Of a DNA stretch of 41,109 nt, positions 14,258 to 38,685 are shown piece after piece. This DNA comes from Spirochaetales bacterium (GTDB taxonomy: Bacteria > Spirochaetota > Spirochaetia > DAHUYW01). The position numbers and the translations under genes were made by a program. The stretch's first letter is position 1; every line of letters starts with the position of its first letter. The stretch is from positions 1 through 41,109 of the forward strand of contig DAHVAK010000170.1 of assembly GCA_027314665.1 (NCBI GenBank), read 5' to 3'. The notes under the pieces are model-generated. The model was not told where the DNA came from. It saw only the letters and a program-made list of their open reading frames with translations, and searched no databases.

Positions 14258-15469
14258 ATGGACATATTTGAGAAATGCACGACCTCCCCGGTAACGAAGC
14301 TTGCTCATGATTACCTTCACTCCGGGCTTTATCCCTATTTTCGACCGATCGAAACGGGCCAGGATACTGAGGTCTATATCCACGGCAAGAAATACCTCAT
14401 GCTCGGCTCCAACAGCTATCTCGGCCTCACCTCCGACCCCCGCGTCATCGAGGCGGCCAACGAGGCGACCCGCAAGTACGGAACCGGAAATGCCGGATCG
14501 CGCTTCTTGAATGGGACTCTCGACATCCACGAAAAGCTCGAGCAGAAGATCGCCGCGCTCATGAATCGAGAGAAGGCGATCCTCTACTCCACGGGCTACC
14601 AGACCAACCTGGGCGTCATTTCCGCGCTCGTCGGCAAGGATGACGTGGTCATCACCGACAAGTCCGATCATGCCTCGATCATCGACGGCTGCAAGCTCTC
14701 CTTCGGGGAGATGGTCCGCTTTCGTCACCAGGATATGGAGCATCTCGAGAAGGTTCTCCAGAAGATCCCGGAGAACAAGGGCAAGCTCATCGTTCTCGAT
14801 GGGGTCTACTCCATGGAGGGCGACATCGCCAACCTTCCCGGGATCATCCCCCTTGCCAAGAAGTACGAGGCGCGCGTCGTGGTCGATGACGCTCACGCGA
14901 TCGGCGTAATCGGAAAAGAGGGACGGGGAACCGCCTCGTACTGGGCCGAAAAGGGGATGATCAACGAGCAGGACGTGGACATCATTACGGGGACCTTCTC
15001 GAAGTCATGGGCTTCGCTCGGAGGCTTCGTCGCCTGCAGCGATCCGGAGGTGATGCTCTTCCTTCGCCATACCTCCCGAGCCCTCATCTTCTCGGCGAGC
15101 ATGACCCCCGGAACCGTTGCCTCGGTCTCGAAGGCCATCGATATCCAGCTTGAAGAGCCCCAGCGCATCGAGCATCTTTGGCACATCACCCACCGCATGC
15201 GCGATGCCTTTCTGAAGATGGGCTTCAGCATCGGGCGCAGCGAGACTCCGATCATCCCGATCTATGCCGGAGAGCTGCATAACGCCCTCACCTTCTGGAA
15301 GGAGCTCACGGACAACGGCCTCTTCGTCAATCCCGTGGTGCCCCCTGCCGTTCCACCGGGAGACTGTCTGATGCGCACCAGCTTCATGGCGACCCACACC
15401 GACGAGCAGATGGACCGCGCCCTCGAGATCTTCGAGAAGGTTGGAAAGAAGGTCGGGATCATAAAGTAG
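14258..15469 (+). CDS. alpha-oxoamine synthase, probable serine palmitoyltransferase-like enzyme
   Basis: 403-residue PLP enzyme of the family that condenses an amino acid with an acyl-CoA (serine palmitoyltransferase, 8-amino-7-oxononanoate synthase, 2-amino-3-ketobutyrate CoA ligase, 5-aminolevulinate synthase). The PLP lysine is K249 in GTFSKSWASLGG. DKSDHASIIDG and the D-x-AH motif (VVVDDAHAIG) are intact, as is GSRFLNGTLDIHEKLE. From memory of the family, YPYFRPIE near the start, FSASMTP, ETPIIPIY and NPVVPPAVPPGDCLMR match bacterial serine palmitoyltransferases such as that of Bacteroides better than BioF or Kbl. No bio, tdh or heme genes are nearby. Substrate assignment remains inference. 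It is driven by its own near-consensus promoter and followed by the 72-bp hairpin repeats. Confidence 0.85.
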   Translation: MDIFEKCTTSPVTKLAHDYLHSGLYPYFRPIETGQDTEVYIHGKKYLMLGSNSYLGLTSDPRVIEAANEATRKYGTGNAGSRFLNGTLDIHEKLEQKIAALMNREKAILYSTGYQTNLGVISALVGKDDVVITDKSDHASIIDGCKLSFGEMVRFRHQDMEHLEKVLQKIPENKGKLIVLDGVYSMEGDIANLPGIIPLAKKYEARVVVDDAHAIGVIGKEGRGTASYWAEKGMINEQDVDIITGTFSKSWASLGGFVACSDPEVMLFLRHTSRALIFSASMTPGTVASVSKAIDIQLEEPQRIEHLWHITHRMRDAFLKMGFSIGRSETPIIPIYAGELHNALTFWKELTDNGLFVNPVVPPAVPPGDCLMRTSFMATHTDEQMDRALEIFEKVGKKVGIIK

Positions 15470-15477
15470 CCGTCGCA

Positions 15478-15683
15478 CACGGCGCGATCCTATCGAACGA
15501 TCGCGCCGGTCGCCTCTCCCGCCTCCGGCGGGACTAGCCCGCCAACCCTCACGGCGCGATCCTATCGAACGATCGCGCCGATCGCCTCTCCCGCCTCCGG
15601 CGGGACTAGCCCGCCAACCCTCACGGCGCGCTGCTATAAACCCAGCGCGCCGGTCGCCTCTCCCGCCTTCGGCGGGAGAGGCT
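15478..15683 (+). repeat. three tandem 72-bp units, each with two GC-rich hairpins
   Basis: Units begin CACGGCGCG at 15478, 15550 and 15622. Units 1 and 2 differ at one base in 72. Each has hairpin A (GGCGCGATC / GATCGCGCC around loop CTATCGAAC), then GGTCGCCTCT, then hairpin B (CCCGCC-TCC-GGCGGG). In unit 3 both arms of hairpin A are changed together (GGCGCGCTG / CAGCGCGCC), so pairing is kept, and hairpin B lengthens to an 11-bp stem closed by TTC (CCTCTCCCGCC / GGCGGGAGAGG). It fills the gap between two convergent genes and reaches the stop codon of the TM2 gene. The strand cannot be assigned. It may act as a bidirectional terminator or RNA-stability element. Confidence 0.85.
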
Positions 15684-16173
15684 AGAAGTCCTCGAGGTCG
15701 CTCTGAGCAGCGTCGCCTGCAAGCTCCGGAAAGACGTAGACGATCGTCCCGCTCTTCGTGACCCGCATCTCGGCAAAACCCTTCGACGCAAGCTTCTCCA
15801 AATCGCGTTTCGCCTCTTCGATGGTCACATCGCCCTCGAGGGCCACCTCGGAGGCAGTTGCGCGCCCCTTGTTCTTCTTCGCCGTTCGAAGGATGACGCG
15901 CTCGATCGATTCCTTTTTCTCCGCCGGCTTCCTTGGTGGGCTCGCGCCGGCGATTTGGCGAGTGAGCGCATCACGGTAGCGAAGCTTCATGTTGGCTTCG
16001 CGCACCTGCATCGGAAGGGTGAAGAGGTCGTAGAACGAACCGACACAGAAAAGCCCGCCCGTGAAGAAATAGAGGATCCCCGTGCCAAACTTTCCAAGGT
16101 AGAAGCGATGGAAGCCCAACGCCCCGCAACCAGAAACGAGCCAGAGTAGATAGGCTACCACCGTCGAATACAT
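15682..16173 (-). CDS. TM2-domain membrane protein with C-terminal winged-helix-like region
   Basis: 163 residues. The N-terminal half has two membrane helices in the TM2 arrangement (VVAYLLWLVSGCGALGFHRFYLG, shown partly, then GTGILYFFTGGLFCVGSFYDLF), with the conserved G-x-H-R-F-Y-L-G turn. The C-terminal half, after a charged linker, reads like a small winged helix (ATASEVALEGDVTIEEAKRD, then LEKLASKGFAEMRV). The ATG overlaps the stop of the fliG-type gene (ATGA) and follows GGTGGAG, so the two are translationally coupled. TM2 proteins have no settled function. The coupling hints at a role at the membrane near the flagellar motor, but this is inference. Confidence 0.82.
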   Translation of the reverse strand: MYSTVVAYLLWLVSGCGALGFHRFYLGKFGTGILYFFTGGLFCVGSFYDLFTLPMQVREANMKLRYRDALTRQIAGASPPRKPAEKKESIERVILRTAKKNKGRATASEVALEGDVTIEEAKRDLEKLASKGFAEMRVTKSGTIVYVFPELAGDAAQSDLEDF

Positions 16174-17634: not shown

Positions 17635-17707
<73 letters not shown>

Positions 17708-37860: not shown

Positions 37861-38685
37861 ATGAGCGAGGAGCTGGAAGCCCTCGAGCCCGGAGGGCCGC
37901 CGTCCCCCCGCGGCGGCGCAGCCCCGGCGCTCGCTCTTGCGAGGCGTCTTCCGCGCAGCCCGCTCAAATGGGTGCTCACCCTCTTCGCAGCCCTTCTCTT
38001 CGGCCTCGTCGTGTCCAACATGCCCCTCTGGAGGGCTGCCCTTGGCCTGCTCTTCCCCGGGAGCAGCGAGCTCGTTTACCCGCGCGCCTCTCTTGCCGCG
38101 CTTGTCGGCGAGCATCTCTTTCTCGTTGGGGCCTCCAGCGCGCTCGCGATCGGAATCGGGCTGCCCCTCGGGGTCCTCGTCACGCGACGAAGCGGAAGGG
38201 CCTTCCTCCCGTTGGTGAACGACCTGAGCTCCCTTGGACAGACCGTTCCGCCCGTGGCGGTTCTCGCCCTCTCGGTGCCCCTGCTCGGCTTCGGGAGCGC
38301 GCCCACCGTCCTCGCCCTTTTCCTTTACAGCCTCCTGCCGATCGTGCGCAACACCATAGCAGGGCTCGATCAGGTGTCCGCCGACGTGATCGAGGCGGCC
38401 CGCGGAATGGGAATGACCTCCGTCCAGTGCCTGTTTCGGGTGGAGCTGCCCCTTGCCATGCGGGTGATCATGGCAGGAGTGCGGACATCGGTGGTGATCA
38501 ACATCGGTACGGCGGTCGTGGGGGCCGTCGTCGGAGCGGGGGGTCTGGGCACGGCGATCATCGCGGGGCTTGTGCGCGAGAACTCCGCCTTCGTCCTGGA
38601 GGGTGCCGTCGCCGCAGGGCTCCTTGCCCTTATCGTCGATCAGCTCCTCGCGCGCGTCGAGGAGCTCCTTGCGGGCGAGGGATAG
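37861..38685 (+). CDS. osmoprotectant ABC permease, YehW-like
   Basis: 274 residues with a cytoplasmic N terminus rich in Pro/Gly/Ala and six predicted membrane helices. LGQTVPPVAVLALSVPLLGFG, LYSLLPIVRNTIAGL and the EAA loop IEAARGMGMTSVQCLFRVELPLAM mark it as the second permease of an Opu/Yeh-type importer. GGAGGLGTAI closes the loop region. The ATG lies three bases after the ATPase stop. It is the last gene of the operon and converges with the PilZ gene four bases on. Confidence 0.93.
   Translation: MSEELEALEPGGPPSPRGGAAPALALARRLPRSPLKWVLTLFAALLFGLVVSNMPLWRAALGLLFPGSSELVYPRASLAALVGEHLFLVGASSALAIGIGLPLGVLVTRRSGRAFLPLVNDLSSLGQTVPPVAVLALSVPLLGFGSAPTVLALFLYSLLPIVRNTIAGLDQVSADVIEAARGMGMTSVQCLFRVELPLAMRVIMAGVRTSVVINIGTAVVGAVVGAGGLGTAIIAGLVRENSAFVLEGAVAAGLLALIVDQLLARVEELLAGEG

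Follow-up and report, generated by a model that had tools for sequence, protein, structure and literature searches.

The array between the aminotransferase-fold and TM2 genes

The window, that is the whole stretch of DNA that was analysed, comprises 41,109 nucleotides and appears to originate from an uncultured Spirochaetia lineage. The source assembly has a size of 3.64 Mb in 299 contigs and is 91% complete and 6.4% contaminated. Three 72-bp units at positions 15478–15683 are arranged head to tail and occupy the gap of a convergent gene pair, which encodes a PLP-dependent enzyme and a TM2-domain protein. A fliG-like gene is the next one upstream of the TM2 gene. The features of the locus are listed below.

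14258–15469, + strand: gene for a PLP-dependent enzyme with the aminotransferase class I/II fold (Pfam PF00155), ending 8 nt ahead of the array
15478–15683, no strand assigned: tandem array of three 72-bp units (TRF and unit comparison), the third shortened by the TM2 gene
15480–15508, − strand: hairpin A of unit 1 with a 10-bp stem and, read on the − strand, the loop GTTCGATAG
15517–15533, no strand assigned: hairpin B of unit 1, 3-nt loop on a 7-bp stem, from the sequence
15552–15580, − strand: hairpin A of unit 2, stem and loop the same as in unit 1
15589–15605, no strand assigned: hairpin B of unit 2, likewise a 3-nt loop on a 7-bp stem, from the sequence
15624–15652, − strand: hairpin A of unit 3, which has the loop GGTTTATAG and two compensated base pairs and belongs to the subfamily of the array on contig C188
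15656–15682, − strand: hairpin B of unit 3, perfect 12-bp stem with a 3-nt loop, overlapping the TM2 stop codon
15682–16197, − strand: gene for a TM2-domain protein (Pfam PF05154), stop codon at 15682–15684, where the array begins

The copy of the PLP-dependent enzyme in the Spirochaetia bacterium isolate JOPF006 is 85% identical. Outside the genus, its nearest relatives are found in metagenome-assembled genomes of Zixibacteria, Nitrospirae and Chloroflexi, which suggests that the gene was transferred horizontally into this spirochaete genus.

TRF assigned the array a period of 72, 2.8 copies and 92% matches (15478–15677), the better score of the two arrays that it reported in the window. Units 1 and 2 are identical at 71 of 72 positions and differ in a single base, so that the arrangement and identity described in the earlier note are confirmed. 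In the direction of TM2 transcription, the stop codon is followed by hairpin B, the sequence GCGACC, hairpin A and the sequence GTGAGGG, after which the next unit starts. The TM2 stop codon and hairpin B of unit 3 share one base, which is the last of the codon and, on the − strand, the first of the hairpin.

The perfect stem of hairpin A with its 9-nt loop is present in all three units. The earlier note had correctly recognised its preservation in unit 3 and the extension of hairpin B in the same unit, and the lengths given there, 9 and 11 bp, are to be replaced by 10 and 12 bp. The note describes the change of the stem end as one from ATC/GAT to CTG/CAG. Between units 2 and 3 an A–T pair is replaced by C–G and a C–G pair by G–C, while the T–A pair between them is constant; both differences are compensated and the stems do not differ elsewhere. 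When two random substitutions were introduced into each arm, all pairs were of the Watson–Crick type in 0.3% of the trials, or in 1.2% if G–U pairs were allowed. The covariance model R2 gave a score of 45.3 bits at hairpin A of unit 1 (15481–15507), a sequence which is itself a seed of this model.

RNA folding predicted the gap to be much more stable than its shuffled versions, with z values of −8.8 for the + strand and −7.3 for the − strand. Perfect hairpins of at least 9 bp with loops of 3–12 nt are found at six places in the window, four of them within the array. The corresponding number of raw hits, in which nested registers are counted separately, is 12 in the window and ranges from 1 to 8 in 20 block-shuffled windows. 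Therefore, it is the clustering and the repetition of the hairpins that stand out, and not their mere presence. As the earlier note had stated, a terminator-type T-run is missing: on neither strand is one of the array's hairpins followed by such a run, and the terminator scan returned no site formed by the array's own hairpins. The Rfam scan of the window gave no match above the gathering score at the array; its sole match was a tRNA at 17635–17707. Elsewhere in the window, a 21-bp tandem repeat of 2.1 copies is located at 38634–38677 and contains a 9-bp hairpin at 38642–38666.

Related hairpins elsewhere in the genome

BLAST revealed a second array on contig C188 of the same genome. It directly follows the stop codon of a TPR gene, with its parts in the same order as in the array of the window. 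Hairpin A of unit 3 differs at 3 of 38 positions from the first unit of the C188 array and at 8 of 38 positions from units 1 and 2 of its own array. The TG/CA stem end beside the loop is common to unit 3 and both C188 units; most dispersed copies have the ATC/GAT end that is seen in units 1 and 2. Since unit 3 is closer to the C188 array than to its own neighbours, the apparently changed copy reflects subfamilies that existed already. The earlier note had taken the paired change to mean selection on the structure and, from this, a probable function as RNA. That paired change proves such a function is not supported: the variant of unit 3 is already present in the C188 subfamily, REP families in general include subfamilies with alternative but complementary stem residues (PMC3733652), and template switching can yield compensated changes in one step (PMC8794818).

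The covariance model R1 was built from the five units of the two arrays, with hairpin B left out. Its 23 matches in the genome comprise the five seeds, eight accepted hairpins and ten places that were dropped. The accepted hairpins lie at six loci (two copies each on contigs C35 and C56, and one each on C246, C287, C211 and C226). Together, BLAST and R1 identify 13 copies of hairpin A at eight loci. The E-values of the accepted hairpins are weak, from 0.003 to 2.3; therefore, the assignment rests on the 9-nt loop and the stem, by which they were accepted, and on the co-location of hairpin B, which was seen afterwards. Two of the dropped matches are the reverse strand of array hairpins. The other eight have neither the loop nor a B motif nearby (C56:16380, C128, C162:15705, C264:35223, C78, C110, C232 and C58). 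A BLAST match on contig C223 (L003), located inside a long coding ORF, was likewise discarded. R2 yielded no new confident copy beyond its seeds and sequences identical to them, with 150 of the 6998 first-look candidates scored, so that copies may have been missed. Two R2 matches were not counted as A copies: one on C7 (25.1 bits), which adjoins a B motif but lies within a called ORF, and one on C122 (16.6 bits), which is located between B motifs.

Hairpin A consists of a conserved 9-nt loop of the GNTCGATAG type and a stem of about 9–10 bp with varying sequence. Among 11 distinct A sequences 99% of the stem cells are paired, both sides have changed in four of nine pairs, and the covariation score was reached by none of 500 shuffles; these values are biased towards structure because the members were collected with a structural model. 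The covarying copies that the earlier note had expected a covariance search to reveal were thus found within the same genome, and none were found in related genomes, where the R1 and R2 matches are weak; the best of them (E = 0.0017, L077 of the congener) lies inside a long called ORF. The 13-mer containing the loop occurs 11 times in the genome and 5 times for the control. Two of these 11 occurrences, on C75 and C121, have no stem, and the same is true for both occurrences in the congener. By itself the loop motif does not distinguish this genome, as at least one match is present in 24 of 60 genomes. A loop containing GGA is characteristic of CsrA-type binding sites. Such a site was considered and rejected, as the loops of the C188 units and of unit 3 contain no GGA.

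The B motif accompanies hairpin A on the same strand and within about 100 bases at all six loci outside the two closely related arrays, and it is found near none of the eight rejected R1 places outside the window. The motif CGCGARCYTGCG occurs at 50 places in the genome in comparison to 7 for the reversed control, and at 26 in comparison to 12 in the congener. About 20 of the 50 places, counted by eye, are single motifs in coding sequence and look like chance occurrences. The longer motif GTCGCGCGARCYTGCGC occurs 13 times in the genome and not once for the control, and it is absent from the other 59 of the 60 genomes. Elsewhere in the genome hairpin B carries the loop GARCYT, whereas in the window it has a GC-rich stem and a 3-nt loop. 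The kinship of the array B hairpin to the dispersed ones is therefore proposed by position only.

The paired changes might also have arisen without any selection on structure, as a neutral by-product of template switching or hairpin-templated repair (palindrome correction) together with gene conversion. According to PMC8794818, template switching is able to form and mend perfect stems and can introduce multibase compensatory changes in a single mutation. The sharing of the unit 3 variant by another array would fit conversion or common descent, and the absence of the array from the congener (see below) is also in line with this explanation. It does not account for the conserved loop of the dispersed copies, nor for the constant relative orientation of A and B from locus to locus. 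As the main explanation of the array we regard it as possible but doubtful.

Gene context and the congener

Gene orientation was assigned to 17 clusters of A and B hairpins by crude ORF picks. By this assignment eight clusters follow a stop codon directly and in sense (C157, C188, C42, C80, C264, C269, C274 and C122), three lie antisense to the gene before them (C56, C246 and C287), and six are located 5′ of a gene, at a contig end, within a called ORF or in an ambiguous position (C226, C211, C35, C70, C197 and C7). When the copies of hairpin A are counted in relation to gene 3′ ends, as the earlier note had proposed, only two of the eight loci have them in sense directly after a stop codon. 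A T6 tail follows the A copies on C246, C211 and C226, and the tailed copies on C246 and C211 point away from the downstream neighbour gene. On C42, C80, C264, C269 and C274 (L136, L148, L168, L169 and L170, respectively) a B hairpin followed by TTT or TTTT is located in sense orientation directly after a stop codon; these B hairpins may act as weak terminators.

One congener was available for comparison. At the locus of the window its gap measures 20 nt and contains no array, in comparison to 212 nt here. Its gap between the TPR and MDH genes is also free of an array. Within the NADH-dehydrogenase-like operon the congener has a gap of 10 nt, while the corresponding gap here, with two A units, measures about 289 nt. 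This C56 insert (L039:1442–1730) lies between the genes for a 4Fe-4S protein and an NADH dehydrogenase chain-6 protein and contains B motifs and a further palindrome in two copies, in addition to the two A hairpins.

These positions bear on the proposal of the earlier note that the array is a terminator or 3′-end device. As a tandem intrinsic terminator or 3′-end stabiliser selected at the RNA level, it would end transcripts or shield the 3′ end of the TM2 mRNA, and it would keep transcription from running on into the opposite gene. In favour of such a device, unit 3 has its hairpin B starting at the stop codon, and on C188 the parts are placed likewise behind the TPR gene. The eight sense clusters point in the same direction; they include five of the seven clusters with B and without A (the other two being C70 and C197), in which B is followed by TTT or TTTT. 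The T6 tails of three other A copies also agree with termination. However, no T-run follows any hairpin of the array, the A copies on C56, C246 and C287 lie antisense to the gene before them, termination by the C56 pair inside its operon would be polar, and the congener has no array at the window locus and at two more. The preserved stem and the covarying copies in the genome stand; the device as such is not supported, in view of the mere two of eight A loci in sense position, the antisense insert within an operon and the array-free congener. The family has a 3′-end bias and lacks a consistent terminator arrangement, and we consider it unlikely that the array is explained in this way.

Another explanation is a cis-acting DNA site: the array might form a cruciform to which a protein binds, or it might serve in recombination, as integron attC and phage att sites do. 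Perfect inverted repeats of 10–12 bp could extrude, and the asymmetric loop would give the site polarity. Searches of plasmid and phage records and of viral contigs found no array-like DNA, the copies are scattered beside unrelated genes and the congener lacks them; we consider such a site highly improbable.

Relation to known repeat families

We propose that the array is probably a local tandem expansion of an untagged, species-private family of intergenic palindromes that proliferates in a REP-like manner. As such it is fairly ordinary: a small repeat family has copies dispersed over one genome, and the array is a place where they are clustered. The family unit would consist of hairpin A, with its variable but compensated stem and 9-nt loop, and the second hairpin B. 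The conserved loop and the free but complementary stem suggest recognition or copying of the hairpin in single-stranded form, by which the copies may have spread. Complementarity and loop would then be retained while the stem sequence drifts into subfamilies. The tandem array may have grown afterwards by slippage or unequal recombination, and the near-identity of units 1 and 2 suggests a recent duplication within it. By analogy with REP elements, for which a role at the mRNA 3′ end is known (PMC12306157), a copy just behind a stop codon, like those in this array, might, when transcribed, block 3′ exonucleases or slow the polymerase as a side effect. A possible effect on the 3′ end of the TM2 mRNA would be incidental and is not needed to explain the array. 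The REP-like reading is compatible with template switching, as the latter concerns the pairing of the stem and not the spread of the copies, and the confidence placed in the two overlaps.

The dispersed copies, the conserved loop, the covarying stem, the fixed strand of A and B, the restriction of the longer B motif to this genome, the mixed orientation to genes, the near-identity of units 1 and 2 and the array-free gaps of the congener count in favour of the REP-like reading. The low copy number of A, the missing RAYT gene, the missing GTAG/CGTC tag, the weak R1 hits, the structural bias of the covariation counts, the different B loop of the array and the comparison with a single congener count against it, as do the three T6 tails and the eight of 17 sense clusters, both of which are predicted by the terminator reading.

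The family shares with REP and BIME elements, as these are described in PMC3733652, short palindromes in intergenic regions, a division into subfamilies whose stem residues are alternative but complementary, clustering in tandem, a preference for convergent or co-directional gaps and a narrow taxonomic range. REPs usually exceed 100 per genome (PMC2817692); many families are reported in PMC3733652 with 20–100 units or fewer, and REP-like families without terminal tags also exist according to this source. The A/B family differs in its few copies, in the RAYT gene that was not found and in the same, not alternating, orientation of A and B. In the broad sense of a repetitive extragenic palindrome it belongs here, with 13 A copies at eight loci and 50 B places in comparison to 7, mostly extragenic where clustered. 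The GTAG/CGTC type is not represented, as there is no tag at the foot of the stem; hairpin A is flanked by GCGAC and TGAGGG in the arrays and by varied sequences elsewhere. Many B copies are preceded by GTCG or TGTCG, but they lack the 8–9 bp stem, the A–T foot pairs and the CCA tail that PMC3733652 describes for CGTC repeats. BIME organisation is likewise not seen, since the units are head to tail and A and B share a strand at six of six loci besides the two related arrays.

The family also resembles in kind the 92 untagged bacterial stem-loop (SLS) families of PMC2267715, which are described as repeated intergenic sequences with a common secondary structure. Its two hairpin types in a fixed relative strand would set it apart from this general description. 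GC-rich stems of 9–12 bp behind a stop codon and three dispersed A copies with T6 recall Rho-independent terminators, whereas in the array no U-tract directly follows a GC-rich hairpin, and antisense and within-operon copies are present.

A limited literature search found no published description of the A/B family. The family adds to the known extragenic hairpins a small and apparently lineage-private set from an uncultured spirochaete, for which a congener offers clean sites that lack the array. It illustrates that covarying stems can arise in a repeat family without a dedicated RNA gene, and advises caution in screens that equate compensatory changes between tandem copies with RNA function.

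The copies do not belong to the RAYT-associated (TnpA_REP) type by the genome content, as no match to the RAYT/Y1 transposase (PF01797) was found in the 91% complete genome. They could instead form a composite mobile repeat of two hairpins with conserved loops and freely covarying stems, whose loop would be read in single-stranded DNA or RNA by an enzyme other than RAYT/Y1; we consider this quite improbable. In the congener, a match to the Y1 transposase (PF01797) is located at C41:713–979 (L154) and contains in-frame stops.
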